Assembly: GCA_019747655.1 (NCBI GenBank)
Contig: JAIEQO010000921.1
Location: 1 to 33,907 of the forward strand
Length of the DNA: 33,907 nt
Direction: 5' to 3'
Origin: Gemmataceae bacterium
GTDB lineage: Bacteria; Planctomycetota; Planctomycetia; Gemmatales; Gemmataceae
The position numbers and the translations under genes are program-made. The notes below the pieces were generated by a model. It saw nothing but the letters and a program-made list of their open reading frames with translations. It was not told the origin of the DNA and did not search any database. Below are positions 9,344 to 28,518 of this stretch, piece by piece (the first letter of the stretch is position 1; each line of letters opens with the position of its first letter).

Positions 9344-12300
9344 ATGTCGACCCCCGCCTTCTCCAAGTTCCTCCGCCGGTGGGCCCAGCAGAAGCGGCCG
9401 GCGGCCCCGGCCAGCCGCCGGGCCCGCCTCCGGGTCGAGGAGGTGGAGGCCCGGCTGGTCCCGGTGACCGCCCCGACCCCGCTGGCCGGGTCCGCCCAGG
9501 CGATCGTCGGGGGGGCGTTCAACTCGCTGTCGTTCGTCCAGCCGTCGGCCGTCGCCGACCCGACGAACCCGGACAACCTGGTGATGGTGACCAACAACGG
9601 CACCTTCATGATCGCCTACGCGTCGAGCGACGGCGGGGCGAGTTGGGTGCCGTTCTTCGACAACAACCAGTACAACCTGGTCCCGGTCCCGCCGCCGGGC
9701 GCCCCGAACCCGCCCCAGGGGTACATCCGGGCGTTCCGCATCGCCGACCCGTCGATCGACCCGGGGCCCGGGTTCAAGCGGCGGGACCAGAAGAATTACA
9801 CCAACACCACCTCGGCGGCGGCCGCGTTCGGGCGGGACGGGAAGGTGTACATCGCCGCCGTCGAGCAGAACGCCGCCCCCGGCCAGCTGGCGACCAGCGG
9901 GGCGGTGGTCGTGTACGCCTTCGACTTCAACGGCGGCGTCCCGCAGATCATCGACCTCGACGAGAAGCTCGGCGCGGAGAACGTCAACGACAGCTTCTTC
10001 GGCTTCACCGCGGGGGGTTACCAGGACAGCCGGGCGAACGTCATCTACCGCTGGCTGACCACCGGGACGAACGAGCGGGAGGGGGCGTTCAACCTGTCCA
10101 TCGCCACCGACAACAACCGGCCGACGTTCACCGACCCGGAGACCGGGCGGACGGCCCGGGACACGATGTCCGGCAAGGGGGTGTACGTCGCCTGGAACAC
10201 CGGCACCTTCGCCACCCCGTTCGAGGACGGGCGGGCCCGGCGGATCGACCCGACCAGCACCAGCGCGATCCTGGTGGCCGGGTCGTCCGACGGCGGGGTG
10301 AACTTCTCCACCCCGGTGCTGGCCAACTCGAACGCCTACTACACCCCGAACACCGGGGCCGCCCTGCCGACCGTCGCCTTCTCCCCGGCCGTCGCCAAGG
10401 CCGGGGCCCCGGCCGGCGGGCAGTTGACCTTCACCTGGCAGACGATCGGCGGCCGGACCACCTCGAACGACCCGATCCCGGGGACCGCGTTCTCCGACGC
10501 CAGCCGCCCGGACAACGGCAACCCGAACCGCCCGGCGGTGGCCTCCGGCAAGAAGCGGTACGACGTCGGCCGGACCATCAACGACGGCATCTCGCCCCCC
10601 CAGGGGGCCCCGGCCGGCACCCCCGACACGCCCGGGGTCACCAACGCCACCTTCGACGTCAACCTGTCCGACCTCGGGAACCTGACGGCCGACTCGCCGA
10701 TCACCGACCTGAACTTCGGGCTGGGCATCTTCCACCCCGACCCGTCCCAGCTCTCGGTGGAGGTGATCAGCCCGGCCGGGGACCGGGTCGTGCTGTTCGG
10801 CAACTGGATGAACGGGCTCGGCCAGAAGCCGACCGCGGGGCAGACCTACGGGCTGGAGACCGGGGGGAACAACGGGGTCGGGGTGCGGACGTTCGCCACC
10901 AACCCGATCCGGGCCAACTTCGTCGGGACGGTGTTCGACGACGAGGCCCCCCGGTACATCAACGACGGGGTTCTGGGGACCCGCCGGGTGTCCGACCCGT
11001 ACGCCTATAACCTGAAGACCGACAGCGTGTTCGGCGGGCTCCTGTCCACCCTGTACGCCGGCAAGACGGCGAACGACCTGGTCGGCACCTGGACGGTCCG
11101 CATCCTCGACGTCCGGAACAGCGGGAGCCCGCCCCCGTTCCAGCAGCTGACGTTCGTCGAGCTGCACGCCTCCGGGTACATCTCGAACACCGGGTTCGGG
11201 CCGGACGAACAGCTGGTCGGGACCGACGGGTTGGCCGCCGCCGTGCCGGTCAACCCGAACGGGACCGGCCAGGACATCGACGGGACCGGCCCGCTGACCC
11301 AGCCGGCGGTCTCCCCGGTGGTCGGCATCGCCGGCGGGACCAGCACCGCCTACGACCGGTCGCTCGGGTCGTTCTCCCCGTACGCCGGCCGGCTGTACAC
11401 CGCCTACGCCGCCCCGGTGTACGACGGCGCGACACTGGTCGACAGCAACATCTTCCTCCGGTACTCGGACAACAACGGGGGCACGTGGTCCCCGGCCGTC
11501 CGGGTCAACGACGACAACGCCAACGACAACTTCAGCGAAGGCCGGCGGTGGCAGTTCCAGCCGACCGTGGCCGTCGACGACGTCACCGGGGCGGTGGTGG
11601 TCACCTGGTTCGACGCCCGGAACGACGCCAGCGACGGCCGGGTGGCGACGTACATCGCCACCAGCATCGACGGCGGGAACACGTTCAGCGCCCGGCTCGA
11701 GGGCGGGGCGTTCTCCAACCAGACCCCGTCCACCCAGGCGTACCTGAACACCCCGAAGCGGGCGACCGACGCCGTGACCGGCCGGCAGGTCGACCTGGAG
11801 CCGATCCCGAGCAACTTCAGCACCTTCAACGTCGACCAGAACAACAACCCGGCCGCCCCGTTCGGGCCCGGCATCCGGCAGTCGCTGATCGCCTTCGACG
11901 GCCGGGTCTACCCGTTCTGGTCCGGGAACAACAACGCCCCCGGGACCCGCATCTTCGTCGGCCGGTACCCGGCCGCCGACAACGACAACCAGCCGGTCCG
12001 GATCACCGCCGGGCCGCGGGTCGTCGGCGGCGACCAGGGGCCGGTCACCGACCCGGTCCGGGTCAACCGGGACGGCCAGCCGTTCGACTACAACACCACG
12101 TTCGCCGACGACGGCACCCGGCTGCTGGACGGGTTCGTCGTCACCTTCGACCGGGCGGTCGACACCAGCACCTTCGACGGCGGCGACGTCCGGGTCTTCT
12201 ACCGCGGGCCGGCCACCGACCGGAACGTCCCGGCCACCCAGCTCCCGGTCGCCGAGGTGTTCGCCCTCAACGCCGTCGCCCCGGACCCGGCGTTCCCGAA

Positions 12301-15300
12301 CCTCCGGAACGCCACCCGGTTCTTCGTCCGGCTCCGGGACCCGCAGGGGGCGGTCGGGACGTACAGCTACGTCGTCGGCCCGAACATCCGGGACCGCATC
12401 CGGACCGACGACCCGTTCGCCCCGGGCGGGGTCGTCCTCGGGAACGAGATGGACCAGGACGCGGACGGCAACCGGGCCGAGACGGGCGGCGGGCCGGGCC
12501 AGCCGGACGACCGGTTCGCCGTCCCGGCGTCGGCCACCGGCGGCCCGTTCGTCCTGCCGTTCGCCACCAACAGCCTGCCGCTGATCATCCCCGGCCCGCA
12601 CGTCGTCGGGTCGGCCGCCGCCGGCCGCCCGGCCGGCCAGCCGGACACCGAGGACAACCTGGTCCTCAACGCCGGGAACGACACCCTGGACGTGACCTTC
12701 GACCGGGACATGGTCCCGTCGTCGTTCACCGCCGCCAACGTCCGCCGGATCACCGGCCCGATCGGGGACATCGCCGGCCCGTTCACCGTCACCCCCCTGA
12801 ACGTCGACCCGATCACCGGCGGGGCCCGGACGTTCCGGATCACCTTCGCCCGGCAGGTGCTCAGCGGCGGGTACACGGTCGAGTTCGGGCCGGACCCGAA
12901 CGGCAACCTGCCCCGGGCGGTGGCCCAGCCGCGGCTGGTCCTCAGCCTGCCGGTCGGTGCGACCTCGGCCGCCGTCCGGTTCGACCGGGACATCTCCCGG
13001 GCGGTGACCGCGGCCGACGTGGTCCGGATCACCGGGCCGAACGGCCCGCTGGCCGGGCCGTTCGACATCACCGGGGGCGGGCGGGACTTCACCGTCACCT
13101 TCCCGGCCGTCCCGGTCGCCGGGCAGTACGTGATCGAGTTCCGGGACGCCCCGGACCGGACCGACACCCCGCTCCGGGTGCCGGCCAACGCGGCCGGCCC
13201 GGTGGCCACCAACCTGAACCCGGTCCCGGCGGTCGACACCAACCTGAACGCCGGGCTGGCCACCCTGCGGGGCGGGGACCGGACCCAGCTCACCCCCGAG
13301 ACGGTGACCACCCGGACCTACGGCCCGCCGGGGCCGTCGACGATCCCGATCCCGTCCGGCTCGACCGCCAGCCCGGCGGTGGCCGAGTTCCCGATCAACA
13401 TCACCGACGACTTCGCCGTCCAGCAGCTGCTGGCGACCAACCCGGCCGACCGGCGGGTCATCCAGGTCCGGCTGACGGTCGACTTCCCGAACGTCCCCGA
13501 CCTGGTCGGCGAGCTGGTCGCCCCGGACGGGTCGACGGTGCTGCTGTTCAACCGGGTCGGGACCCAGGGCCAGCCGAACCAGGCGAACCTGACCAACACC
13601 CTGTTCGAGGACACGGCCGGGACCCCGATCTCGTCGGCCGCCCCGCCGTTCACCGGCCCCGGGGCGTTCAACCCGGAGGAGCCGTTCGCCCGGCTGGTGG
13701 TCCGGCCGGAGGGCCCGGTGTCGTCCCGCGGCACCTGGCGGCTGCGGGTGACCAACACCGGGGCCGGGGCCGGGGTGATCCGGAACTTCCAGCTCACCCT
13801 GCCGTTCGCCATCTCCGGGTCCGGGCTGGGTGAGGCGGTGGCCGACCGGTTCACCGCCGGGTTCCGCATCTTCACCCAGGACCCGTCCAACCCGCTCAGC
13901 CGGCAGCAGTGGACGCCGGTCGGGCCGGCCAGCCAGAACGCGACGGTCAACCCGGCCGGGTTCAACACCGGGCGGGTGACCGCCCTGGCCGTCGACCCGT
14001 CCGACCCGTCCGGGAACACGGTGTACGCCGGCGGGGCGACCGGCGGGGTGTGGAAGACGACGAACTTCCTGACCACCGACCCGGTCGGCCCGGACTGGGC
14101 CCCGCTGACCGACTTCGGCCCGACCGTGACCTCCGGCGGGGCGTTCGGGAACACCCTGAACATCGGGTCGATCGCGGTCTTCGGCCGGAACAACGACCCG
14201 ACCCAGTCGGTCGTCCTGGTGGCCACCGGGGAAGGCGACACCCTCGGCGAGTACGTCCAGGGCGGCGGCCTCCGGACCGAGGAGTCGCCGGGCGTCGGGT
14301 TCCTGCTGTCGGTCGACGGCGGGCGGACCTGGCGGCTCTTGGACAGCTCGGTCAACGTCGACCGGACGACCGGCGAGTACCTGGCGATCTCGTCCGGCCA
14401 GCGGGACCACCGGTTCGTCGGGACGGTCGGGTTCCGGGTGGCCATCGACCCGACCCCGACCCCGGCCGGCGAGCTGATCTTCTACGCCGCCCTGAGCGAC
14501 GCCCCGTCCCGGACCGCGGCCCAGCGGACCGGCGGCATCTACCGGTCGAACGACACCGGCAAGACCTGGACGCTGGTCCGGGCCGGGCAGGCGACCGACG
14601 TGACCCTGGCCCCGGGCAGCGCCCAGACGCTGAACATCCCGGACGACCCGAACAACCCGAACCTCAGCCCGTTCCTCCAGGTGATGTACGCCGCCTTCCG
14701 CGGGGAGGGGGTGTTCTTCAGCCCGCAGGCCCCGGACGCGACCTCGGCCGGCGGCCCGGGGGCCCTGACGCGGGTGGACGGCCGCGGCCAGAACCCGCTG
14801 TTCCGCGACTTCCAGATCATCCCGACCCGGCAGATCCCGATCGCCACCTTCCCCGGGCAGGCGGACCGGACCCCCGGCGGGAACAAGGGGCGGATCACCC
14901 TGGCCGTCCCGGCGGTGACCAACGACGTGATCCGCAACGTCGCCTACCAGGGGTGGGTGTACGCCCTGGTGGCCGGGGCCGGGCAGGACGCCTCGGGCGG
15001 CCCGATCGACGGGCTGTACCTGTCCAAGGACTTCGGCCGGAACTGGACCCGGGTCCGGCTGAACGAGTTCCGCCCGCCGGTCGCGGCCGGGGTGTTCCAG
15101 GGCGGGGCGTTCGGGACGAACGACGTGTCGGCCCCCCAGTCCAACCCGTTCGGGCTCGACAACGCCCCGTCCGGCGGGAACTTCGCCCAGTCGATCGCCG
15201 TCGACCCGCGGAACCCGAACATCGTCTACCTCGGCGGGCTGAACCAGGCGACCCGCCAGCCGCTCGGCGGGTACATGCGGGTGGACGTGACCAAGCTCGA

Positions 15301-18300
15301 GGACGCCCAGGCGGTGGTGGCGTACAACAACAGCCTGCCGAACGCCGCCCCCAACGCGGCCGGCACCAACGTCGGCGGCCCGCGGCTCCAGTTCGGCTCC
15401 CCGCCGGTCGCCGCGGACCTGTCCCGGTTCACCGGGTCGGTGGTCGTCGGGCCGTACGAGGACCCGGTCTATGCCGGGCCCGGCGGGAACTACGGCATCT
15501 TCCGCCCGGACAACCTGCTGTCGGTCAACCGGGGGTTCCTGAACGTCTTCCGGAACCCGGCCCGGCCGTTCGTGTCGAACGCCACCCTGCTGTTCACCAA
15601 CGTCGACTCGAGCGCCGGGGCAGGGTTCCAGAACCGCGGGTTCGGGGCCCAGACCCAGTACATCGACGCCGAGACCGAGACGAACGTCCACGAGATCCTG
15701 ACGATCGTCGACCCGCTGACCGGGAAGACCCGGCTGATCACCGGGGACGACCAGGGGGTGGCCAGCCAGGTGGCCAACGACGACGGGTCGACCGACGACG
15801 CCGCCGTCGGGTTCGCCCGGGCCCCGAACAAGCGGCGGAACGGCGACCTGCAGATCGGCCAGTTCTTCCAGGGGGCGGCCCAGCCGAGTCAGCTGGCGGC
15901 CGACATCGCCGGGGTCCAGCGGCTGTTCTACGCCACGTCCGACAACAACGGGTACCCGCGGTCGACCAACACCGTCCTCCAGGACGGCGGCATCCGGGAC
16001 TCGCGGTTCACCGCCCCGCCGGCCCCGTACACCTCGCCGGAGGGGACGGTCGGGTACTCGGGGACCGGGGTGGCGACCGACCAGACCGGGACCGGGGTGG
16101 CCTACGAGTTCCGGTGGCCCGGGCTCGGCGGCCAGGGGACCGACTTCTTCCGGGTCATCCCCCGGAACACCTACCAGGAGGGGAACGGGCTGAACGACGG
16201 GTTCAGCCGGACCAACGGGCTGCTCCAGGACCGGTCGAACAACGGCATCCTGGGGGGGGTGCCCGACGACCCGCTCCGGTTCAGCGGCCAGTGGCGGCCG
16301 GACGCCGGGTCCAACTTCGCCGTCAACCCGATCAACCCGAACGCCATCGTGATGTCGGCGAACGGGGACAACCAGGGGGTCGGGCGGCTGTTCCGGACGA
16401 CCGACCGGGGGCTCAACTGGTTCGTCGTCGGGGAGACGAACACCGTCACCCAGGCCCTCGGCCAGGGGGACTTCGCGGCCCCCGGGCTGCCCGGCCCGGG
16501 GCTCGACGGGACGTACTCGGCGGCGGTCGCGTTCGGGGCCCCGGACCCCAACCAGCCGACGCTCTTGGACAACTTCATCTACGCCGGGACCAACGGCGGG
16601 CGGGTGTTCGTCACCCGGACCGGGACGGCCCCGTGGCTGAACATCACCGGGCCGGTCGGGTCGACGTTCGGGGTCGGCGGGTCGCTCGACGGGTCGCCGG
16701 TCCAGCAGATCGTGGCCAACCCCCGGCGGGGCAGCACCGACCTGTTCGCCGTCACCCTCCGCGGGGTGTACTACAAGGCCAACGCGTTCGACACGGCGGT
16801 CGGCTGGCAGAACGTCACCGGCAACCTGTTCAGCCTGACCCGGGCGGCGTTCGGCGGGTCCGGGGAGCAGGTCGCGTCGCTGAAGTACCTGACCACCATC
16901 GCCGCCGACTGGCGGTTCGCCATCCCCCAGGACCCGGAGGACCCGAACAGCCCGACCTTCCCGGTCCTGTACGTCGGGGGCGAGGGCGGGGTGTTCCGGT
17001 CGGCCGACAAGGGGACCACCTGGGACTACTTCCCGGCGGCCACCACCTACACCGACGTGCCGAGCGGGAAGACCTACGACATCCCGGCCGGCGGGTACCT
17101 GCCGAACGTCCACGTGACCGACCTGGACCTGTCCCTCGGGGACATCGACCCGGCCAACGGGCTGCCCCGGCAGTCCCAGTCCGGCGGGCTGAACCTGCTG
17201 TTGGCCACCACCTACGGCCGCGGCCAGTTCGCCATCCGGCTGAGCAACCAGCTGCCGCCGAACAGCTTCGTGTCCGGCCCGCGGGTGGTCCAGCTGATCA
17301 ACCCGAACTCCGTCGGCGGCCCGTCCGACCGGTTCCAGGTGGTCTTCAGCGGGCCGGTCGACCCGAACACGTTCACCGCCGCCGACGTCGCCCTGACCGG
17401 GCCGAACGGGGCGATCACCGTCCAGTCCGTCACCCCGGTCGGCGGGGGCACCCTGCCGACCACCTTCGACATCCTGTTCCAGCCGGTCGCCGGGCAGGCC
17501 CCGGTGAACGTGGTCATCGGGGCCAACCCCGGGGCCGGGAAGGACGTCCCCGCCGTGACCGACCTCGGCGGGAACGTGATGAACCAGAACGGGAACGGGA
17601 CGAACGGGGAGTCGCTGGTCGACCAGTACCGGACCACCATCGTCCTGAACGCGGCCACCAACAACCGGCTGGTCGTCGCCCAGGCCCCGGCCACGGCGGT
17701 CGCCGGGGAGTCGGTGAGCGTGACCATCGAGGCCCGGGACGCGGACGACCAGATCTTCGACGGGTCGGCCCCCGGCCGGCCGGCCCTGAACGGGACCGTC
17801 ACCCTGTCCCCGGCCCCCGGGACCGGGGCGTTCAGCCCGACCACCGTGGACCTGGTGAACGGCCGGGCGACGTTCCAGATGGTGTTCGAGAAGGCCGGGG
17901 ACCAGACCGTCCGGGCCGACCTGACCTCGGGCGGGCTGAACGCCAACGGGACCGACTTCACCGTCCGGGTCCGGGCGGCCGCCGCCTCCCAGTTCGTCCT
18001 CGACCCGCCGGACACCATCCTGACCGTCGGGCTGAGCAACCCGGACGTGCCCTTCACCATCGCCGCCCGGGACCGGTTCGGGAACGCGGCCGCCGACTAC
18101 GCCGGGCCGGTCACCGTCGCCGTCACCGGGGCCGGCGGGACCGTCCCCGAGACGCTCAACATGGCCAACGGGACCGGGACGTTCACCGGCCGGTTCACCA
18201 ACACCGGGACGGCCACCGTGACCGTCTCCGGCCCGGACCCGACCAACGCGGCCAACACCATCTCGGGGTCGGCCACGGTGTCGGTCAGCTCCGGGACGGC

Positions 18301-19615
18301 GGCCCGGCTGGAGGTGACGGCCGGGGGCGGCCCGTTCGTCATCGGCAACCCGGTCACGGTCACCGTCCGGGCCCTGGACGCGGGCGGGAACCTCGCCGAC
18401 TTCGACAGCCGGTTCACCATCGACTTCGGCGACCCGGCGGCGGTGGTCAGCCCGGCCGACCCGGTTCTGACCGACGGGACGGCGACCGTGACCGTCACCT
18501 TCGGGACCCCGGGGACGTACACCGCCCGGGTGACCTCCGGGGCCCTGACCGGGCAGAGCGGGCCGATCACCGTCCTGGCCACCCCGCCCAAGCCGAAGCC
18601 GACCACCACCCTGCCCAAGGTGACGGCCGTCGGGTCCGGGGGGGGCGGCAGCCCGGTCGTCCAGGTAGTCAACCCGGACGCCTCCCCGCTCACCCAGTTC
18701 GTCCCGTTCCCGGCCGGGTTCAACGGCGAGGTCGACGCGGCCGGGGGCGGGTTCACCGGCGGCCTCCGGGTGGCGGTGGCCGACGTCACCGGGGACGGGG
18801 TGCCGGACTACGTGGTCGGCAGCGGCCCGGGGATCACCGCCATCGTCCAGGTCCGGGACGGGGCGACCGGGAAGGCGACCAACATCCAGCCGTTCGAGAC
18901 GTTCAAGGGCGGGGTGTTCGTGGCCGTCGGGGACGTGACCGGGGACGGGACGGCCGACGTGGTCGTCACCCCGGACCTGTCCGGCGGGCCGCGGGTGTCG
19001 GTCTACCGCGGCGGGGACTTCCGCCGGGTGGCCAACTTCTTCGGGATCAAGGACGAGAACTTCCGGGGCGGGGCCCGGGCCGGGGTGGGGGACGTCAACG
19101 CCGACGGGTTCGCCGAGGTGGTCATCTCGGCCGGGTTCGGCGGCGGCCCGCGGATCTCGGTGTACGACGGGGCGGCCCTGGCCCAGGGCCGGGAGATCAA
19201 CCCGGTCAGCGACTTCTTCCTGTTCGAGGAGGGGCTGCGGAACGGGGCCTACGTGGCCGTCGGGGACGTGGACGGGGACGGGTTCGCCGACCTGATCGGC
19301 GGGGCCGGCCCGGGCGGCGGGCCGCGGGTCCTGACGATCAGCGGCAAGACCCTGCTGCAGAGCGGGGCGGACGCCGCCATCGGGGCCCCGCTGGCCAACT
19401 TCTTCGCCGGCGACCCCGAGAACCGGGGCGGGGTCCGGGTGACGGTCAAGAACCTGGACAACGACGACCTCGCCGACGTCGTCACCGGGGCCGGGGAGGG
19501 CGGCGGGTCCGCCGTCACCTCCTACGCCGGCAAGACCCTGATGGAGGGCGGGACCGACCCGCTCTTCGGGTTCGACGCCTTCCCGGACTTCTCGGGCGGG
19601 GTGTTCGTCGGCTAA
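9344..19615 (+). CDS. Giant secreted protein: BNR propellers, P-domain-like, Ig-like and FG-GAP modules
   Basis: A 3423-residue protein. There is no classical signal peptide; instead a basic N-terminus carries RLRVEEVEARLVPV (28-41), a motif common at the start of large planctomycete secreted proteins. Modules by eye: Asp-box propeller units near residues 94, 314, 707 and 775; P-domain-like jelly-roll about 433-616; Ig-like domains about 886-1270; second P-domain-like module about 1348-1491; a large Asp-box region about 1520-2640 (SVDGGRTW, SNDTGKTW, SKDFGRNW, TTDRGLNW, SADKGTTW); another Ig-like domain about 2645-2760; three invasin/filamin-like domains about 2774-3080; a PKPKPTT linker; and FG-GAP calcium-binding-type repeats (DVTGDGVPD, DVNADGFAE, DVDGDGFAD) from about 3096 to the end. 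It is probably cell-surface or matrix material. The start ATG at 9344 has only a weak AGGA upstream; the frame is open further 5' but without support. Confidence 0.9.
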   Translation: MSTPAFSKFLRRWAQQKRPAAPASRRARLRVEEVEARLVPVTAPTPLAGSAQAIVGGAFNSLSFVQPSAVADPTNPDNLVMVTNNGTFMIAYASSDGGASWVPFFDNNQYNLVPVPPPGAPNPPQGYIRAFRIADPSIDPGPGFKRRDQKNYTNTTSAAAAFGRDGKVYIAAVEQNAAPGQLATSGAVVVYAFDFNGGVPQIIDLDEKLGAENVNDSFFGFTAGGYQDSRANVIYRWLTTGTNEREGAFNLSIATDNNRPTFTDPETGRTARDTMSGKGVYVAWNTGTFATPFEDGRARRIDPTSTSAILVAGSSDGGVNFSTPVLANSNAYYTPNTGAALPTVAFSPAVAKAGAPAGGQLTFTWQTIGGRTTSNDPIPGTAFSDASRPDNGNPNRPAVASGKKRYDVGRTINDGISPPQGAPAGTPDTPGVTNATFDVNLSDLGNLTADSPITDLNFGLGIFHPDPSQLSVEVISPAGDRVVLFGNWMNGLGQKPTAGQTYGLETGGNNGVGVRTFATNPIRANFVGTVFDDEAPRYINDGVLGTRRVSDPYAYNLKTDSVFGGLLSTLYAGKTANDLVGTWTVRILDVRNSGSPPPFQQLTFVELHASGYISNTGFGPDEQLVGTDGLAAAVPVNPNGTGQDIDGTGPLTQPAVSPVVGIAGGTSTAYDRSLGSFSPYAGRLYTAYAAPVYDGATLVDSNIFLRYSDNNGGTWSPAVRVNDDNANDNFSEGRRWQFQPTVAVDDVTGAVVVTWFDARNDASDGRVATYIATSIDGGNTFSARLEGGAFSNQTPSTQAYLNTPKRATDAVTGRQVDLEPIPSNFSTFNVDQNNNPAAPFGPGIRQSLIAFDGRVYPFWSGNNNAPGTRIFVGRYPAADNDNQPVRITAGPRVVGGDQGPVTDPVRVNRDGQPFDYNTTFADDGTRLLDGFVVTFDRAVDTSTFDGGDVRVFYRGPATDRNVPATQLPVAEVFALNAVAPDPAFPNLRNATRFFVRLRDPQGAVGTYSYVVGPNIRDRIRTDDPFAPGGVVLGNEMDQDADGNRAETGGGPGQPDDRFAVPASATGGPFVLPFATNSLPLIIPGPHVVGSAAAGRPAGQPDTEDNLVLNAGNDTLDVTFDRDMVPSSFTAANVRRITGPIGDIAGPFTVTPLNVDPITGGARTFRITFARQVLSGGYTVEFGPDPNGNLPRAVAQPRLVLSLPVGATSAAVRFDRDISRAVTAADVVRITGPNGPLAGPFDITGGGRDFTVTFPAVPVAGQYVIEFRDAPDRTDTPLRVPANAAGPVATNLNPVPAVDTNLNAGLATLRGGDRTQLTPETVTTRTYGPPGPSTIPIPSGSTASPAVAEFPINITDDFAVQQLLATNPADRRVIQVRLTVDFPNVPDLVGELVAPDGSTVLLFNRVGTQGQPNQANLTNTLFEDTAGTPISSAAPPFTGPGAFNPEEPFARLVVRPEGPVSSRGTWRLRVTNTGAGAGVIRNFQLTLPFAISGSGLGEAVADRFTAGFRIFTQDPSNPLSRQQWTPVGPASQNATVNPAGFNTGRVTALAVDPSDPSGNTVYAGGATGGVWKTTNFLTTDPVGPDWAPLTDFGPTVTSGGAFGNTLNIGSIAVFGRNNDPTQSVVLVATGEGDTLGEYVQGGGLRTEESPGVGFLLSVDGGRTWRLLDSSVNVDRTTGEYLAISSGQRDHRFVGTVGFRVAIDPTPTPAGELIFYAALSDAPSRTAAQRTGGIYRSNDTGKTWTLVRAGQATDVTLAPGSAQTLNIPDDPNNPNLSPFLQVMYAAFRGEGVFFSPQAPDATSAGGPGALTRVDGRGQNPLFRDFQIIPTRQIPIATFPGQADRTPGGNKGRITLAVPAVTNDVIRNVAYQGWVYALVAGAGQDASGGPIDGLYLSKDFGRNWTRVRLNEFRPPVAAGVFQGGAFGTNDVSAPQSNPFGLDNAPSGGNFAQSIAVDPRNPNIVYLGGLNQATRQPLGGYMRVDVTKLEDAQAVVAYNNSLPNAAPNAAGTNVGGPRLQFGSPPVAADLSRFTGSVVVGPYEDPVYAGPGGNYGIFRPDNLLSVNRGFLNVFRNPARPFVSNATLLFTNVDSSAGAGFQNRGFGAQTQYIDAETETNVHEILTIVDPLTGKTRLITGDDQGVASQVANDDGSTDDAAVGFARAPNKRRNGDLQIGQFFQGAAQPSQLAADIAGVQRLFYATSDNNGYPRSTNTVLQDGGIRDSRFTAPPAPYTSPEGTVGYSGTGVATDQTGTGVAYEFRWPGLGGQGTDFFRVIPRNTYQEGNGLNDGFSRTNGLLQDRSNNGILGGVPDDPLRFSGQWRPDAGSNFAVNPINPNAIVMSANGDNQGVGRLFRTTDRGLNWFVVGETNTVTQALGQGDFAAPGLPGPGLDGTYSAAVAFGAPDPNQPTLLDNFIYAGTNGGRVFVTRTGTAPWLNITGPVGSTFGVGGSLDGSPVQQIVANPRRGSTDLFAVTLRGVYYKANAFDTAVGWQNVTGNLFSLTRAAFGGSGEQVASLKYLTTIAADWRFAIPQDPEDPNSPTFPVLYVGGEGGVFRSADKGTTWDYFPAATTYTDVPSGKTYDIPAGGYLPNVHVTDLDLSLGDIDPANGLPRQSQSGGLNLLLATTYGRGQFAIRLSNQLPPNSFVSGPRVVQLINPNSVGGPSDRFQVVFSGPVDPNTFTAADVALTGPNGAITVQSVTPVGGGTLPTTFDILFQPVAGQAPVNVVIGANPGAGKDVPAVTDLGGNVMNQNGNGTNGESLVDQYRTTIVLNAATNNRLVVAQAPATAVAGESVSVTIEARDADDQIFDGSAPGRPALNGTVTLSPAPGTGAFSPTTVDLVNGRATFQMVFEKAGDQTVRADLTSGGLNANGTDFTVRVRAAAASQFVLDPPDTILTVGLSNPDVPFTIAARDRFGNAAADYAGPVTVAVTGAGGTVPETLNMANGTGTFTGRFTNTGTATVTVSGPDPTNAANTISGSATVSVSSGTAARLEVTAGGGPFVIGNPVTVTVRALDAGGNLADFDSRFTIDFGDPAAVVSPADPVLTDGTATVTVTFGTPGTYTARVTSGALTGQSGPITVLATPPKPKPTTTLPKVTAVGSGGGGSPVVQVVNPDASPLTQFVPFPAGFNGEVDAAGGGFTGGLRVAVADVTGDGVPDYVVGSGPGITAIVQVRDGATGKATNIQPFETFKGGVFVAVGDVTGDGTADVVVTPDLSGGPRVSVYRGGDFRRVANFFGIKDENFRGGARAGVGDVNADGFAEVVISAGFGGGPRISVYDGAALAQGREINPVSDFFLFEEGLRNGAYVAVGDVDGDGFADLIGGAGPGGGPRVLTISGKTLLQSGADAAIGAPLANFFAGDPENRGGVRVTVKNLDNDDLADVVTGAGEGGGSAVTSYAGKTLMEGGTDPLFGFDAFPDFSGGVFVG

Positions 19616-21726: not shown

Positions 21727-24700
21727 TTAGTGACTGTCCGATCCCCCGACATCTTCACTCGTGAGCTGAACCGGCGGCGGGCCGGCCGGGGCCGCCACCG
21801 TCTCCCCGTTGCGGCCGTCCCGCCCGGTTTCCGGCCGGCGGTGTTCGGTGGCGGGCGCCGGCTGGCCGGGTAGCTTCGGCGGGCCGCTCACCCACTCGAT
21901 GAGCAGTTGGACCGCGACGTAGAAGGCCGGGACGAAGAAGACCGCCAGGACGGTGGACGTAATCATCCCGCCGAACACGGCCGTCCCGAGCGACCGCCGG
22001 CTGGCCGCCCCGGCCCCGGTGGCGAACACCAGGGGGGCCACCCCGAGGATGAACGCGAAGCTGGTCATGATGATCGGCCGGAACCGGAGCCGGGCGGCGT
22101 GGACGGCCGCCTCCCGTACCGGCTTGCCGGTCAGCCGCGTCTCCCGGGCGAACTCGACGATCAGGATGGCGTTCTTCGACGCCAGGGCGATGATGAGTAC
22201 GATCCCGATCTGGACGTACACGTCGTTGGCGAAGTTCCGCAGCCCGACCGCCCCGACCACCCCCAGCAGGCCGAGGGGCACCACCAGGATGACGGCCAGG
22301 GGCAGCAGCCAGCTCTCGTACTGGGCGGCCAGGACGAGGTAGACCAGGAGCACCGCCAGCCCGAACACGTACACCGCCTCGCCGGAGACCTTCTTCTCCT
22401 GGAAGGCGATCCCGGTCCAGTCGTACCCCATCGTCCGGGGGAGGGTCTCGGCGGCCGCCGCCTCCATCGCCCCGATCGCCTCCCCGGAGCTGTACCCCTC
22501 GGCCGCCGACCCCCGGACCTGGGCGGTCGGGTACAGGTTGTACCGGATCACCGACTGCGGCCCGATCCGGTCCTCGACGGTCAGGAGCGTCCCGAGCGGG
22601 ACCCGCTTGCGGGGCAGCCCCGGGCCCTCCTCCCGGCCGGGGACTTCGAGCCGCAGGATGATCCCGGGGTCGGCCCGGAACCGGCCCTGGGCCTGGACCC
22701 GGACCTGGTACGTCCGGTCGAACTTGTTGAAGTCGTTGACGTAGACCGACCCCAGGTTGGCCTGGAGGGTGCGGAAGATGTCGTCCGCCTTCACCCCCAT
22801 CTTCTCGGCCTTCACCCGGTCGATGTCGAGGTAGATCTGCGGCACCCCGGCCCGGAACACCGAGTTGATCGCCTGGGGGTCGATCGCGGGCTGCTCCCGG
22901 GCGGCCGCGATCAGCGCCTGGACCCGGTCCTGGAGGGCGGCCAGGCCGACGCCCTCCCGGTCCTCGACCTGCAGCTCGAACCCGCCGGACACCCCGAGCC
23001 CCTGGATGGCCGGCGGGATGAGGACGATCACCCGGGCGTCCGGGAACCCGGCGAACTCCCGCCGCAGGTCGTTCACCAGGGCGGCCTGCTGCAGCTCCGG
23101 GGTGGTCCGCTTGGACCAGTCGGTCCAGGCGATGAAGGCGGTGGCGGCGTTCGGGGCGGCCGTCCCGTCGAGCAGGGAGAACCCGCCGAGGACGAACCAG
23201 TTCTCGGCCGCCCCGGCCTCCTGGTAGCGCCTCATCACGGCGTTGAACTTCTCGGTCAGCTCCCGGGTCCGGTCGAGCGACGCCGCGTCGGGGAGCTGCA
23301 TGGCGACGATGACGTAACCCTGGTCCTCCTCGGGCAGGAACCCGGTCGGGGTGTGGACGTAAAGGTAGCCGGTATACGCCGCCACCCCGGCGAACGCGAG
23401 CAGGACCAGCGGCCAGACCCGGACGAGCTGGCGGACGCTCCAGGCGTAGGCCCGCTCGACCGGTCCGTAGGCGGCCTCGAACGCCCGGGCGAACCACCCC
23501 TTCTTCTTGACCGGCTTGAGGTACTGGGCGCACTGGGCGGGCTTCAGGGTGAGGGCGTTGATCGCGCTAATCAGGGCGGTGGCGGCGATGGTCAGGGCGA
23601 ACTGGCGGTAGAGCTGGCCGGTGATCCCGCCGAGGAAGGCGGTCGGCAGGAACACGGCCATCAGCACCAGGGTGATGGCGATGACCGGCCCGGTCACCTC
23701 GCTCATCGCCTGGATGGTGGCGTCCCGCGGGGTCATCCCCTGCTCGATGTGGTGGCTGGCGTTCTCGACGATCACGATCGCGTCGTCGACCACGATCCCG
23801 ATGGCCAGGATCAGGCCGAACAGGGTGAGCAGGTTGACCGAGAAGCCGAGCAGCGGCATGAACGCGAAGGCCCCGATGATCGTCACCGGGACGGTGGTGG
23901 CGGGGACCAGGAGGGCCCGGAAGCTGTGGAGGAACACCAGGATGACGATGAGGACCAGGACCCCGGCCTCGGCCAGGGTCAGGTACACCTCGTCGATGGC
24001 CGAGGCGACGAACTTGGTGGTGTCGAACGGGATGTCGTACTGCACCCCCTCGGGGAGCGTCGGGGCGATCTTCTCCATCGCCGCCCGGACGGCCTTGGCC
24101 ACGTCCAGGGCGTTCGACCCGGGGAGCTGGTAGATCAGGATGTTGGCCGCGTCGTACCCGGTCTTGGTGGCGAACGAGTCGTACGTCTGGGCCCCCAGCT
24201 CGACCCGGGCCACGTCCCGGAGGTAGACGATCTGCCCGCCCTCGCCGGACTTGACCACGATCCCGGCGAACTCCTCGGGGTCGGACAGCCGGCCGAGGGT
24301 GGTGACGGTCAGGGTGAACGCCTGGCCGGACGGGTTGGGCGGCTGGCCGATCTGCCCGGCGGCGACCTGGACGTTCTGCCGCTGGAGGGCGGCGACCACG
24401 TCCTGGGTGGTGAGCTGGCGGGCGGCCAGCCGGTCCGGGTCGAACCAGATCCGCATGGCGTAGGCCCCGACCCCGCGGACGTTCACGTCCCCGACCCCCG
24501 GGACCCGGCTCAGCTCGTCCCGCAGCCGGAGGGTGGCGTAGTTCGACAGGAACAGGGCGTCGTAGGCCCCGGACGGGGAGGTCAGGGAGATGGCCAGGAC
24601 GATGTTCGACGACTGCTTCTTGACCGTGATCCCCTGCCGGCGGACCTCCTCCGGGAGCTGCGGCTCGGCCACCGAGATGCGGTTCTGGACGAGCACCTGG

Positions 24701-25011
24701 GCCTGGTCCAGGTCGGTCCCGATGTCGAAGGTGACGGTCAGCCCGTAGCTGCCGTCGGCCGAGCTGGTCGAGGACATGTACAGCATGTTCTCGACCCCGT
24801 TGACCTGCTGCTCGATCGGGGCGGCGACGGTGTTGGCCACCACCTGGGCGTTGGCCCCGGGGTAGTTGGTGCTGACCTGGACGGTCGGGGGGGTGATCTG
24901 GGGGTACCGCTCGACCGGCAGCCGGTACAGGGCCACGACCCCGAACAGGACCGTGACGATGGCGATCACGTTGGCGAAGATCGGGCGGTCGATGAAGAAC
25001 CGGGAGATCAT
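21727..25011 (-). CDS. RND efflux pump, HAE1 family (AcrB/MexB-like)
   Basis: A 1094-residue inner-membrane proton/drug antiporter, the usual length for AcrB-like pumps. The start MISRFFIDRPIFANVIAIVTVLFG is the standard first transmembrane helix. GIVVDDAIVIVENA holds the paired aspartates of the proton relay (D407/D408 in AcrB), and ALASKNAILIVEFA the conserved lysine (K940 equivalent). Porter-domain landmarks include VERYPQITPPTVQVSTNYPGA and LQNRISVAEPQLP-like VQNRISVAEPQLP. A helix group with HSFRALLVPATTVPVTIIGAF and LGFSVNLLTLFGLILAIGIVVDD is typical. The C-terminal tail (about 50 residues, PAPATEHRRPETG...) is polar and extra. The start is the ATG at 25011; the open frame continues upstream through a repeat. 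The adaptor gene lies 143 bases upstream; no TolC-like gene is in the window. Confidence 0.96.
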   Translation of the reverse strand: MISRFFIDRPIFANVIAIVTVLFGVVALYRLPVERYPQITPPTVQVSTNYPGANAQVVANTVAAPIEQQVNGVENMLYMSSTSSADGSYGLTVTFDIGTDLDQAQVLVQNRISVAEPQLPEEVRRQGITVKKQSSNIVLAISLTSPSGAYDALFLSNYATLRLRDELSRVPGVGDVNVRGVGAYAMRIWFDPDRLAARQLTTQDVVAALQRQNVQVAAGQIGQPPNPSGQAFTLTVTTLGRLSDPEEFAGIVVKSGEGGQIVYLRDVARVELGAQTYDSFATKTGYDAANILIYQLPGSNALDVAKAVRAAMEKIAPTLPEGVQYDIPFDTTKFVASAIDEVYLTLAEAGVLVLIVILVFLHSFRALLVPATTVPVTIIGAFAFMPLLGFSVNLLTLFGLILAIGIVVDDAIVIVENASHHIEQGMTPRDATIQAMSEVTGPVIAITLVLMAVFLPTAFLGGITGQLYRQFALTIAATALISAINALTLKPAQCAQYLKPVKKKGWFARAFEAAYGPVERAYAWSVRQLVRVWPLVLLAFAGVAAYTGYLYVHTPTGFLPEEDQGYVIVAMQLPDAASLDRTRELTEKFNAVMRRYQEAGAAENWFVLGGFSLLDGTAAPNAATAFIAWTDWSKRTTPELQQAALVNDLRREFAGFPDARVIVLIPPAIQGLGVSGGFELQVEDREGVGLAALQDRVQALIAAAREQPAIDPQAINSVFRAGVPQIYLDIDRVKAEKMGVKADDIFRTLQANLGSVYVNDFNKFDRTYQVRVQAQGRFRADPGIILRLEVPGREEGPGLPRKRVPLGTLLTVEDRIGPQSVIRYNLYPTAQVRGSAAEGYSSGEAIGAMEAAAAETLPRTMGYDWTGIAFQEKKVSGEAVYVFGLAVLLVYLVLAAQYESWLLPLAVILVVPLGLLGVVGAVGLRNFANDVYVQIGIVLIIALASKNAILIVEFARETRLTGKPVREAAVHAARLRFRPIIMTSFAFILGVAPLVFATGAGAASRRSLGTAVFGGMITSTVLAVFFVPAFYVAVQLLIEWVSGPPKLPGQPAPATEHRRPETGRDGRNGETVAAPAGPPPVQLTSEDVGGSDSH

Positions 25012-25028: not shown

Positions 25029-25159
25029 AATGACCAATGACCCACCAATGACCCACCAATGACCAAGGAAGACAGGTGCGGTTCTTCCCCAAGTCGGAGG
25101 TAGGTCATTCGTCATTCGTCATTCCTTGGTCATTGGTGGGTCATTGGGCATTGGTCATT
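25029..25159. repeat. Inverted repeat of GGTCATT / GGTGGGTCATT units, copy A
   Basis: Left arm 25029-25070 (AATGACCAATGACCCACCAA... type) and right arm 25122-25159 (TTCCTTGGTCATTGGTGGG... type) are inverted copies over about 38 bases with few differences, around a spacer of about 50 bases that also carries TCATTCGTCATTC. The units are short tandem repeats of GGTCATT, GGTGGGTCATT and CGTCATT. It fills the gap between adaptor and pump genes, and the right arm supplies the adaptor's TGA stop (25155-25157). A related element is at 26671-26783. In composition it is much less GC-rich than everything around it. Confidence 0.8.
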
Positions 25160-26570
25160 TCCCCGAAGGGGGCGGGATCGGCGGGCCGCCGGTCTTGGGC
25201 GGCGGGGGGCCGGCGAAGGTCCACACCTCGGGCACCACCTCGGCCCCGGGGCGGGCCTTCTGGAGGCCCGCCACGATCACCACGTCGTCCGGGCCGATCC
25301 CCTTGTCGATGGCCACCACCGCCTGGACCGGCAGCTTGCTCGGCGGCGGGGGGGCTTGGGGGATGCCGGGCGGGGGCGGCGGGGCCGGCGGCGGGTTCGG
25401 GTTGGTCAGCGTCCACGGGGGAGGGCCGGCCGCCTCCCCGGGGGGCGGGGCACGGTAGATGCGGGTGCCGACCGTGACCACCTTCTGGGCCACCTTGTTC
25501 CCGGGCCCGACGACGTACACGTACCGCCCCTCCTGGCCGCTCTGGAGGGCCTCCTCGGGGATCACCGGGCGGTCCGTCGGCGGCCCGACCGGGACCCGCA
25601 CCCGGGCGTACAGCCCGGGGTAGAGGAGCCGGACCGGGGGGGTCCCGGGGGGCGACCCGGGGGCCGGCGGGCTGCCCGGGTTGGGCACCCGGCCGCGGAC
25701 CCGGACCGTCCCGGTCCCGGTGTCCACCCGGTTCTCCCGGAAGTCGATCTCGCCCCGGTGGGGGTAGCCCTCCTCGGTCGCCACCCCGACCTCGACCGGG
25801 ATGCGGCGGCTGGTCGGGGACGGCAGCCCGGGCGACTGCTGGAGGGCCCGCTGGTACTCGACCAGGTCCCGCTCCGGCACGTCGAAGTAGACGTACAGCG
25901 GGTCGACGCTGACGACGGTGGTGAGCAGGGTCGGGCTGGCCTGGCCGACCAGGTTCCCGCGGGTGACGAGGGTGCGGCTGATCCGCCCGTCGATCGGGCT
26001 CTTGATGTCGGTGTACTCGAGCTGGAGGCCGGCCGTCTGCTTGGCCGCCTCGGCGGCCGCCTTGTCGGCCACCGCCACGTCGAACTGGGCCCGGTTGGCG
26101 GCCAGGGTGGCGACCGCCTTGTCCACGTCGGTCTTGGCCGCCGCACCCTTGTTGAACGCCTCCCGCTGGCGGGTCTCGTCGGCCGTCGCCAGGGCGATCT
26201 GGGCTTTAGCGTTGGCCATGTCGGCCTCGGCCTTGGCGATGTCGGCGACGCTCTTGGCCACCGCCGCCTGGTACTCCCGGGGGTCGATCGTGTACAGCGG
26301 CTGGCCGGCCCGGACCTCCTCCCCCTCGGTAAACAGGATGTCGGTCAGGAAGCCCTTCACCCGGGCGGTCACGTCCACCTTCTCGATCGCCTCCAGGTAG
26401 CCGTTGTACTCGTAGTAGCTCTGGACCGGGTACACGACCGGCTTGGCGACGGTGACGGTTTCGAGCCCCTTTTGCGGCGGCGGGCCCTTCCCCCGCTGGC
26501 ACCCGGCCAGCCCGGCGACGGCCCCGGCCATTACGGCGAGGGCGGCCCAGCGGTACGGCGAGGACGGCAT
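25155..26570 (-). CDS. RND efflux periplasmic adaptor (membrane fusion lipoprotein)
   Basis: A 471-residue HlyD/AcrA-type adaptor that links the pump to an outer-membrane channel. MPSSPYRWAALAVMAGAVAGLAGC ends in a lipobox (LAGC), so it is probably a lipoprotein. Next come the biotinyl-lipoyl-like and hairpin parts (YNGYLEAIEKVDVTARVKGFL, EGEEVRAGQPLYTIDPREYQAAVA, long Ala-rich helices, then LEYTDIKSPIDGRISRTLVTRGNLVG) and the beta-barrel (VDPLYVYFDVPERDLV). Two features are odd: a proline-rich insertion of about 40 residues (PNPPPAPPPPPGIPQAPPPP) before VQAVVAIDKGIGPDDVVIVAGLQ, and a Pro-rich tail (PPPPKTGGPPIPPPSGK). The start is the ATG at 26570 with GGAG 7 bases upstream; a longer open frame has no site. 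The gene precedes the pump gene and probably shares its transcript. Confidence 0.94.
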   Translation of the reverse strand: MPSSPYRWAALAVMAGAVAGLAGCQRGKGPPPQKGLETVTVAKPVVYPVQSYYEYNGYLEAIEKVDVTARVKGFLTDILFTEGEEVRAGQPLYTIDPREYQAAVAKSVADIAKAEADMANAKAQIALATADETRQREAFNKGAAAKTDVDKAVATLAANRAQFDVAVADKAAAEAAKQTAGLQLEYTDIKSPIDGRISRTLVTRGNLVGQASPTLLTTVVSVDPLYVYFDVPERDLVEYQRALQQSPGLPSPTSRRIPVEVGVATEEGYPHRGEIDFRENRVDTGTGTVRVRGRVPNPGSPPAPGSPPGTPPVRLLYPGLYARVRVPVGPPTDRPVIPEEALQSGQEGRYVYVVGPGNKVAQKVVTVGTRIYRAPPPGEAAGPPPWTLTNPNPPPAPPPPPGIPQAPPPPSKLPVQAVVAIDKGIGPDDVVIVAGLQKARPGAEVVPEVWTFAGPPPPKTGGPPIPPPSGK

Positions 26571-26626
26571 GCGGCGGCTCCACCGGCGGGTTGCGGCGGC
26601 CGGGAACCCGCACGCCGCGTGCCGAC

Positions 26627-26656
26627 ATGATAGGCGGCGGCTACAACCACACCCAA
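26627..26656 (-). promoter_or_regulatory. Putative promoter for the efflux operon
   Basis: On the minus strand TTGGGT (26656-26651) and TATCAT (26632-26627) are 18 bases apart; the -10 fits 5 of 6 consensus bases, the -35 four. It would start transcription about 50 bases before the adaptor ATG. It sits just inside the repeat at 26671. By eye only. Confidence 0.3.
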
Positions 26657-26670
26657 CCACCCCTGTCGGG

Positions 26671-26783
26671 GAATGACCAATGAGGAATGACCCACCAATG
26701 ACGAAGGGAAGAACCGGATGATCTGCCGGCCGGTGTTCTCCCTTCGTCATTGGTGGGTCATTGGTGGGTCATTCGTCATTCCT
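26671..26783. repeat. Inverted repeat of GGTCATT / GGTGGGTCATT units, copy B
   Basis: The left arm (about 26671-26710, with AATGACCCACCAATGACGAA) and right arm (about 26740-26783, with TTCGTCATTGGTGGGTCATT) are inverted copies; the core CCCTTCGTCATTGGTGGG is perfect. The right arm contains an extra GGTGGGTCATT unit. The element lies between the divergent adaptor and esterase genes, 22 bases before the esterase ATG. With copy A it flanks the adaptor gene. Confidence 0.8.
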
Positions 26784-26805: not shown

Positions 26806-28518
26806 ATGTTTACCCGAACGCTGCCGCTCGCCGTGGCGCTCGTCCTGCCCGCCCTCGCCCTGCCGGCCCCGGCCCAGCCGGACGAAATCCCCAAGGGGGA
26901 GCTGACGGAGCACACCTTCGCCGACAGCAAGGTCTTCCCCGGGACCACCCGGAAGTTCTGGGTGTACGTCCCCCGGAAGTACGACGGGAAGACCCCGGCC
27001 TGCGTGTACGTCAACCAGGACGGCGTGCAGTACAAGGCCCCCGAGGTGTTCGACAAGCTGATCCACACCGGCCGGATGCCGGTCACGGTCGGCGTGTTCG
27101 TCACCCCGGGCGTGGTCCCGCCGCCGTCCCCGGACGCCCTGCCGCGGTTCAACCGGAGCTTCGAGTACGACGGCCTCGGCGACGGCTACGCCCGGTTCCT
27201 TCTCGACGAACTCCTACCGGCAGTCGAGAAGCTGAAGACGGCCGGCGGCCGGCCGATCGTGCTGTCGAAGAACGGGAATGACCGGGCCATCGGCGGGGCC
27301 TCCAGCGGGGCCATCTGCGCCTTCACGGCGGCCTGGGAGCGGCCGGACGGCTTCACCCGGGTGTTCAGCGCGATCGGCACCTACGTGGGCTTGCGCGGCG
27401 GGAACGAGTACCCGACCCTGGTGCGGAAGTCCGAGCCGCGGCCGATCCGGGTGTTCCTCCAGGACGGCGAGAACGACCTGAACATTTACGGCGGCAACTG
27501 GTGGATGGCGAACCAGGAGATGGAGCGGGCCCTGACGTTCGCCGGGTACGAAGTCGCCCACTCGTGGGACAAGGGGAAGCACAGCACCGACGAGGGGACG
27601 AAGGTGTTCCCGGAGGCGATGGAGTTCCTGTGGAAGGGCTGGCCGGAGCCGGTGAAGGCCGGGAAGGGGTCGCCGCAACTCCAGCAACTCCTCATCCCCG
27701 GCGAGGGGTGGCAGCTCGTCGGCGAGGGGTACAAGTTCACCGAGGGGCCGTCGGCCAACGCCAAAGGCGAGGTCGTCTTCAACGACGTGGGGGCCTCGAA
27801 GACGTACAAGGTCGGCCCGGACGGTAAGCCGGTCGTCTGGCTGGAGGACTCGAAGCGCGGCGACGGCCAACGGCACGGACCCGACGGCCGGCTGTATGCC
27901 AACGCCGGCAACCAACTCCTGGCCTGGGACGCCGAAGGGAAGGCCACGGTGGTGGCCGACGGGTTCCGGGGGAACGATCTCGTCGTCAACCACGCCGGCG
28001 GCGTCTACCTGACCGACCCGTTCACCAAGCCGGGGAACTCGGCCGTCTGGTACGTCTCGCCGAAGGGCGAGAAGCGGGTCGTTGACACCGGCCTTGGGTT
28101 CGCCAACGGCATCACCCTGTCGCCCGACCAGTCGCTCTTGTACGTCGACGACATGCGGTCGCACTGGGTCTACAGCTACCAGATTCAGGCCGACGGGTCG
28201 CTGGCCTACAAGCAGAAGTTCTTCCACCTGCACGTCCCGGACACGGCCGACGACTCCGGGGCCGACGGGCTGCGAACCGACCGCGACGGCCGGCTGTGGG
28301 TGGCGACCCGGATGGGACTACAGGTGTGCGACCAGGCCGGGCGGGTGAATTGCATCATCCCGACGCCGAACCGGACCGTCTCGAATCTGACGTTCGGCGG
28401 GCCGGACTTCGACGTGGTCTATGCGACCTGTGGCGACAAGGTCTTCAAGCGGAAGGTGCGGGTGAAGGGGGCGAACCACTTCGAGCCCCCGATCAAGCCG
28501 AAGGCCCCGCAGTTGTGA
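26806..28518 (+). CDS. Secreted esterase fused to SMP-30/gluconolactonase-like domain
   Basis: A 570-residue protein with a signal peptide (MFTRTLPLAVALVLPALALPAPAQ). Residues about 30-285 are an esterase-D/IroE-type alpha/beta hydrolase: RKFWVYVPRKYDGKTPACVYVNQDG, the nucleophile elbow GGASSG (S166 in GxSxG), an acidic position in FLQDGEND and a histidine in WDKGKHSTDEG (H259) or AHSW (H252). Residues about 300-560 form a six-bladed SMP-30/gluconolactonase-type propeller: YKFTEGPSANAKGEVVFNDV, RHGPDGRLYANAG, NDLVVNHAGGVYLTDP, GFANGITLSPDQSLLYVDDM, GADGLRTDRDGRLWVATRMG. The domains suggest hydrolysis of an ester followed by action on a lactone or sugar derivative outside the cytoplasm; the substrate is unknown. 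The ATG at 26806 is chosen for the signal peptide; no clear Shine-Dalgarno is visible. Confidence 0.88.
   Translation: MFTRTLPLAVALVLPALALPAPAQPDEIPKGELTEHTFADSKVFPGTTRKFWVYVPRKYDGKTPACVYVNQDGVQYKAPEVFDKLIHTGRMPVTVGVFVTPGVVPPPSPDALPRFNRSFEYDGLGDGYARFLLDELLPAVEKLKTAGGRPIVLSKNGNDRAIGGASSGAICAFTAAWERPDGFTRVFSAIGTYVGLRGGNEYPTLVRKSEPRPIRVFLQDGENDLNIYGGNWWMANQEMERALTFAGYEVAHSWDKGKHSTDEGTKVFPEAMEFLWKGWPEPVKAGKGSPQLQQLLIPGEGWQLVGEGYKFTEGPSANAKGEVVFNDVGASKTYKVGPDGKPVVWLEDSKRGDGQRHGPDGRLYANAGNQLLAWDAEGKATVVADGFRGNDLVVNHAGGVYLTDPFTKPGNSAVWYVSPKGEKRVVDTGLGFANGITLSPDQSLLYVDDMRSHWVYSYQIQADGSLAYKQKFFHLHVPDTADDSGADGLRTDRDGRLWVATRMGLQVCDQAGRVNCIIPTPNRTVSNLTFGGPDFDVVYATCGDKVFKRKVRVKGANHFEPPIKPKAPQL

Follow-up and report, generated by a model that had tools for sequence, protein, structure and literature searches.

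Tandem heptamers occur in cyanobacteria, as the STRR heptamers and as the heptamers of the P6b segment of the Nostoc trnL intron, the latter forming a hairpin. S23, a protein for which we know of no catalytic activity, was first recognized in the intervening sequences (IVS) of 23S rRNA; many IVSs encode it in their loop, and an IVS is excised by RNase III. S23 is a pentameric four-helix-bundle protein; in the Coxiella IVS, tandem heptamers (GACAGAT) are located just upstream of the S23p ORF, and the Coxiella protein is believed to remain unproduced in vivo (PMC4990558). Heptamers with the sequences GGGAATC and GGGGA(T/C)T were described in Xanthomonas and Nostoc, and those of Xanthomonas form 70–75 inverted pairs, which favor sites between aligned ORFs, at no more than 50 bp from a stop codon (PMC4692102). 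REP sequences are stem-loops of 20–40 bp, one end of which carries a GTAG or CGTC tag (PMC3733652). No paper that we found in the open-access literature connects inverted heptamer arms with S23 genes outside rRNA.

The DNA analyzed here (the window) is a stretch of 33,907 nucleotides from a Gemmataceae bacterium. It contains the following features:

25029 to 25159, no strand: ORF-less hairpin element 1, in the spacer between the adaptor and pump genes, with arms of AATGAC heptamers and AATGACCCACC 11-mers
26672 to 26780, no strand: ORF-less hairpin element 2, in the divergent spacer between the adaptor gene and the esterase/SGL gene
25155 to 26570, minus strand: RND efflux periplasmic adaptor with a lipoprotein signal (RND_mfp/TIGR01730), a host gene outside the element, with orthologues in four congeners
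25155 to 25157, minus strand: TGA stop codon of the adaptor gene, within element 1, in the context GGGGAAATGACC
21727 to 25011, minus strand: RND transporter permease (pump) of the AcrB type (PF00873), a host gene
26806 to 28518, plus strand: esterase/SMP-30 (SGL) gene, a host gene divergent from the adaptor gene

Both elements consist of AATGACS heptamers and AATGACCCACC 11-mers that face their own inverse, forming long, AT-rich, near-perfect hairpins. The arms of element 1 (25029–25072 and 25109–25152) are 84% complementary with a perfect core of 26 nt; those of element 2 (26686–26709 and 26739–26762) are 24 nt long and 100% complementary. Allowing one mismatch at most, GGTGGGTCATT occurs seven times in the window, each time within element 1 or 2; the mean in the shuffle control was 0.6, and 7 was never reached. 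The GC-content is 50% for element 1 and 53% for element 2 as compared to 72% for the window, and the proportion of 120-nt windows with a lower GC-content was 0.03% and 0.24%, respectively. The predicted RNA folds had energies of −84.2 kcal/mol (z = −8.5) for element 1 and −75.5 kcal/mol (z = −7.1) for element 2. These results agree with the earlier note, which had described two GC-poor internal inverted repeats with common units, one providing the adaptor TGA and the other located in the divergent region. The complementary ends make a long stem, as in an rRNA IVS, and are also terminal inverted repeats, as in a MITE. Elements 1 and 2 had no match in Rfam. The only Rfam match in the window was an unrelated Acido-Lenti-1 RNA (RF01687) at 2923–2968 on the plus strand, with 52.8 bits against a gathering threshold of 37; on the same strand, one very long ORF of approximately 3,400 codons occupies positions 9344–19615.

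The hairpins belong to a family dispersed in the genome. The 17-mer GTCATTGGTGGGTCATT had 154 exact matches in the 7.3-Mb genome, and a reversed-pattern control had none. Because these matches are mostly arranged in head-to-head pairs, the genome contains approximately 75 copies of the element; a BLAST search with element 2 as the query found copies on dozens of contigs. The 17-mer was present in four of five congeners, and no match was found in 35 further genomes from the same family, order, and class. Copies are approximately 75–155 bp in size and have symmetric arms built of tandem units, with one to three 11-mers per arm depending on the copy and outer units that are various and private. 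The two arms of a copy resembled each other more than they resembled the arms of other copies (p = 8e-4 for the outer part and p = 0.01 for the inner part). In one copy (L005, positions 1–163, on contig C368) both arms share a private, symmetrical extension of 42 nt, which suggests arm-to-arm copying or recent conversion. The own-genome copies examined were located between protein genes and not within rRNA. No exact empty site was obtained and no target-site duplication was found (see below), so that the evidence for mobility is indirect.

The earlier note had also stated that the two elements bracket exactly the adaptor gene, and had suggested that this gene might be a mobile or swappable cassette. 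The adaptor gene indeed has an element on each side, and the description of the bracketing was roughly right; however, the bracketing is incidental, because approximately 75 such elements are present across the genome and other close pairs, on contigs C919 and C887, have different genes between them. The repeats found by the genome-wide search were widespread between genes and had no tie to adaptor genes. Comparison of the locus with that of relatives also argues against a cassette. The adaptor and pump genes are adjacent in congeners G002, G003, G004, and G005, and the operon is conserved in congeners without the flanking element; in G002, in which the esterase/SGL gene is likewise divergent from the adaptor gene, the divergent spacer lacks the hairpin element. 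Identity to G004, G003, G002, and G005 was 75, 65, 64, and 58% for the adaptor and 85, 73, 74, and 69% for the pump, so that the order of divergence is nearly the same for the two proteins. From the conservation of this operon in four congeners and the parallel divergence of its two proteins, we conclude that no cassette was swapped. Widespread repeats without a tie to the adaptor gene and an adaptor history that agrees with that of the pump were the two findings named in the note as refuting its proposal; that the adaptor gene is a cassette is almost certainly wrong.

As a high-copy, dispersed, extragenic palindrome found behind stop codons, the element resembles REP and REPIN sequences, and, as in Pseudomonas and E. 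coli, it might be a palindrome of that type moved by a RAYT, which is a Y1 tyrosine transposase. The genome does contain three good Y1_Tnp genes. However, no AATGAC/GTCATT cluster was found within approximately 1.5 kb of them, and at least two have other, GC-rich inverted repeats on their flanks (ACCAGGGGTTTGCACCCCTGG at L062 and CCCCGAAGGGG at L063). A RAYT gene flanked by the same palindrome was therefore rejected as the partner. In addition, the arms are composed of 7- or 11-bp tandem units, not of a 20- to 40-bp REP, and have no one-sided GTAG or CGTC tag. Movement by a RAYT is thus an improbable explanation. Even less probable is a classical MITE, in which the arms would be the terminal inverted repeats of a DDE transposon and would be mobilized in trans. 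The elements are short, dispersed, and bounded by inverted repeats, and a longer coding relative exists, all as in a MITE; against this, the number of 11-mers in the arms varies, the coding relative encodes an S23/IVP protein and no transposase, and no target-site duplication was found (1.16 nt observed vs. 1.18 nt for shuffled sequences, with element boundaries uncertain by a few nucleotides).

The coding relative is located on contig C887 (locus L099, positions 6034–6582). Its element arms are approximately 480 nt apart, 40 nt long, and 100% complementary, and enclose an ORF of 135 amino acids. The product is an S23/IVP four-helix-bundle protein, scoring 35.1 bits with PF05635 (cut-off 33.8) and 55.2 bits with TIGR02436 (cut-off 24); S23 relatives in the PDB are 2gsc and 2rld. 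An S23 ORF in the loop, which is the arrangement of many IVSs, was found in the long form (L099 and L135), and both copies in the window are without the ORF, which is carried by one of the approximately 75 copies in this genome. After the left arm, the S23 gene starts as AATGACGAAGGAGAAGACATG. In the ORF-less copies AATGACGAAGGAAGAC is retained, which may be the remnant of a Shine-Dalgarno sequence; the inner edge of their arms, GAAGGAAGAC, corresponds to the Shine-Dalgarno segment ahead of the S23 start. In G002 and G001, the S23 proteins most closely related to it (77% and 70% identity, respectively) are encoded at non-orthologous sites and have the same arms as the C887 copy, on both sides in G002 and on the left side only in G001. 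The genome of G005 (one contig, 97% complete) had 35 matches of the 17-mer and no close S23 of the cognate clade; it is an exception to the co-occurrence of hairpins and S23 described below, and short copies can therefore occur in the absence of a cognate S23.

The context of 53 copies was determined with a simple codon-usage gene caller made for this analysis. None of these copies was inside a gene. Tandem spacers held 41 of the 50 placeable copies, a share greater than expected from intergenic length (p = 0.002) and not significantly different from that expected from spacer counts (Fisher p = 0.22). Within tandem spacers, the copies started at a median of 1 nt past the upstream stop codon, with 40 of 41 starting within 30 nt, and for 35 the distance to the preceding stop codon was shorter than that to the following start codon (p = 5e-6). 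The stop codon itself was contained in 18 of the 41 copies, and in 10 of these it was the TGA of the first AATGAC. Elements bearing an S23 gene had a similar location: 45 of 58 were behind the end of a co-directional gene, compared with 15% of random positions (p = 1e-23). The positions of the hairpins at gene 3′ ends are non-random and their folds are strong, which leaves room for the other suggestion of the note, that the repeats may be regulatory hairpins.

At the locus in the window, element 1 includes the adaptor stop and the pump gene starts 18 nt past the element, at 25011; element 2 is 101 nt upstream of the adaptor start (26570) and 25 nt ahead of the divergent gene at 26806. The adaptor-pump spacer of G002 also contains a GTCATT hairpin, which likewise provides the adaptor stop. 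The corresponding spacers of G004 and G005 contain palindromes that are unrelated to this hairpin and are themselves dispersed: GGCACAGGCCTCCCGGCCTGTG in G004 (L095 junction) had 649 matches in that genome and 28 in the genome of the window, and CGACCAGCCGGCTGACGCCGGC in G005 (L098 junction) had 26 matches in that genome and 194 in G001. This shows that one adaptor-pump spacer has been colonized repeatedly, either through a shared preference or through selection for a hairpin. If the latter, these would be selected regulatory hairpins, the spacer needing a hairpin to balance adaptor and pump mRNA and retaining palindromes of any origin. The occupation of the same spacer by unrelated families, the very stable predicted folds, and the maintained complementarity of each copy's own arms are consistent with such selection; however, all of these families may favor spacers behind genes, in which case coincidence or tolerance would suffice, and the spacer of G003 has no obvious palindrome. 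We regard selection for a regulatory hairpin as on the unlikely side, and as compatible with the explanation preferred below.

Arms of this kind were common around S23 genes. In the genus, 24 of 36 S23 genes had inverted short-repeat arms at E<1e-5 and 12 were without strong arms, as compared to 13 of 600 random positions with such arms; the true background is lower than 13/600, because most of these 13 were RAYT loci, which have their own inverted repeats. Most of the arms in the genus were composed of 7-bp units of differing sequence (GGACAGA, GTGTTTG, AGTGCGG, and AGGGATG). Arm similarity was correlated with S23 identity (Mantel r = 0.60, p = 5e-5; r = 0.53 without syntenic copies). Similar arms were also found for S23 genes at L106, L108, and L112 and at L110 and L115, where the likeness is simple inheritance because the loci are orthologous.

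A scan of GTDB was performed with the cognate S23 clade as the query, the nine-member S23 alignment being too diverse. It yielded 80 S23 loci in Verrucomicrobiota, Planctomycetota, Patescibacteria, Omnitrophota, and Bacteroidota. Arms were found at 50 of the 80 loci vs. 5 of 240 controls at E<1e-3, and at 19 of 80 vs. 0 of 240 at E<1e-8; their period was mostly 7 bp, and the heptamers AATGACN, AATGTCT, and CTAATTT predominated. One of the loci (L151, in G043) is from a 9.1-Mb bin titled Candidatus Nealsonbacteria, a size implausible for that lineage, and the bin is probably mis-binned or contaminated. For another S23 clade, on cyanobacterial plasmids, inverted heptamer arrays were present at 9 of 10 loci, and the inverted-arm layout was thus seen in Verrucomicrobiota, Planctomycetota, Patescibacteria, Bacteroidota, and Cyanobacteria. 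Two heptamer-armed S23 genes on cyanobacterial plasmids (L269 in NC_019429.1 and L275 in NZ_CP112875.1) are located between cas6 and cas4 in type I-D CRISPR operons; these may be insertions rather than cas genes.

ORF-less AATGAC-heptamer hairpins were present in 7 of 12 targeted distant genomes containing the cognate S23 clade, in up to 23 copies, and the controls had none. Among 198 other genomes of the phylum, the S23 clade was found in five, hairpins in four, and both in two (Fisher p = 0.003). The 20 ORF-less hairpins of G035 have a genome-specific arm, AATGACGAATGTCGAAACCAGAATGTCGAA, that is also the arm of the S23 element of G035. These 20 hairpins have a conserved, non-complementary segment between the arms (GAAGCTCG vs. 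GAAACCAG), and this hairpin family therefore keeps a defined internal loop.

We conclude that the repeats in the window are probably ORF-less copies or derivatives of a dispersed, IVS-like S23 hairpin element located outside rRNA, whose spread S23 may promote. The observations on which this rests are copy number, hairpin anatomy, the presence in this genome of an S23-bearing copy with matching arms, the agreement of arm sequence with S23 phylogeny, an architecture found in several phyla, and placement directly behind stop codons. The full-length element would consist of a stem of inverted short tandem units (an AATGACG 7-bp theme and an 11-bp variant) and a loop encoding S23/IVP. The match between the inner arm edge and the Shine-Dalgarno segment suggests that the short form arose through loss of the ORF. 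S23 might bind the heptamer arms and promote spread of its cognate hairpin in trans, with ORF-less forms riding along, and insertion would prefer gene 3′ ends. In the E. coli malE-malF operon, intra-operon REP hairpins protect or process mRNA and lower downstream relative to upstream output. By analogy, and as our most speculative suggestion, the hairpin over the adaptor stop could protect or process adaptor mRNA and lower pump output relative to that of the adaptor.

A broader proposal, which we advance tentatively and hold somewhat less probable than its converse, is that S23 proteins act as cognate partners for a class of mobile hairpins that extends across phyla. Each S23 clade would recognize its own heptamer-array arms and spread them to sites just behind stop codons, either together with the ORF or alone; the intermediate might be RNA or single-stranded. 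In cyanobacteria, Xanthomonas, and planctomycetes, this class would then be one origin of heptamer repeats that have long been unexplained. The proposal gives S23/IVP, a very common protein family of unknown function, a testable role, predicts protein-arm specificity and an insertion preference for stop codons, and offers a common framework for heptamer repeats, intergenic hairpins, and the intervening sequences of rRNA. The locus also cautions that a hairpin next to a gene of an operon can belong to a dispersed repeat family instead of being a gene-specific regulator, and it illustrates how one operon spacer can be taken by different repeat families in related species.

Among known systems, the cyanobacterial STRR and P6b heptamers are like the S23 arms in being heptamer arrays, which need not imply identity with them. 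The TAACTGA heptamers of Beggiatoaceae (PMC4679880) are also intergenic, and some overlap the end of the upstream ORF, but they are direct repeats with essentially no inverted pairs and no S23 link. REP/REPIN sequences and their RAYTs (PMC3116915, PMC2817692) share with the present family dispersed extragenic palindromes behind stop codons, a cognate single-gene partner, and co-variation of arm and protein; here, however, the partner is S23 and not a Y1 transposase, the arms are tandem heptamers, and the RAYTs present have other palindromes. The 23S rRNA IVSs of Coxiella and Leptospira (PMC4990558) likewise have a stem of inverted repeats and a loop that contains an S23-family ORF, whereas the elements described here are behind the stop codons of protein genes, have stems made of heptamer arrays, and comprise many S23 clades, each with its own unit, together with dispersed ORF-less copies. 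The Xanthomonas and Nostoc heptamers (PMC4692102) are, like our elements, 7-bp units in inverted pairs near stop codons, but were read as G-quadruplex repeats and not linked to S23; X. campestris has an S23 protein, XCC0516 (PDB 2gsc). The IVS heptamers of Coxiella (PMC4990558) and the stop-proximal inverted heptamers of Xanthomonas (PMC4692102) are pieces of the S23-hairpin picture.
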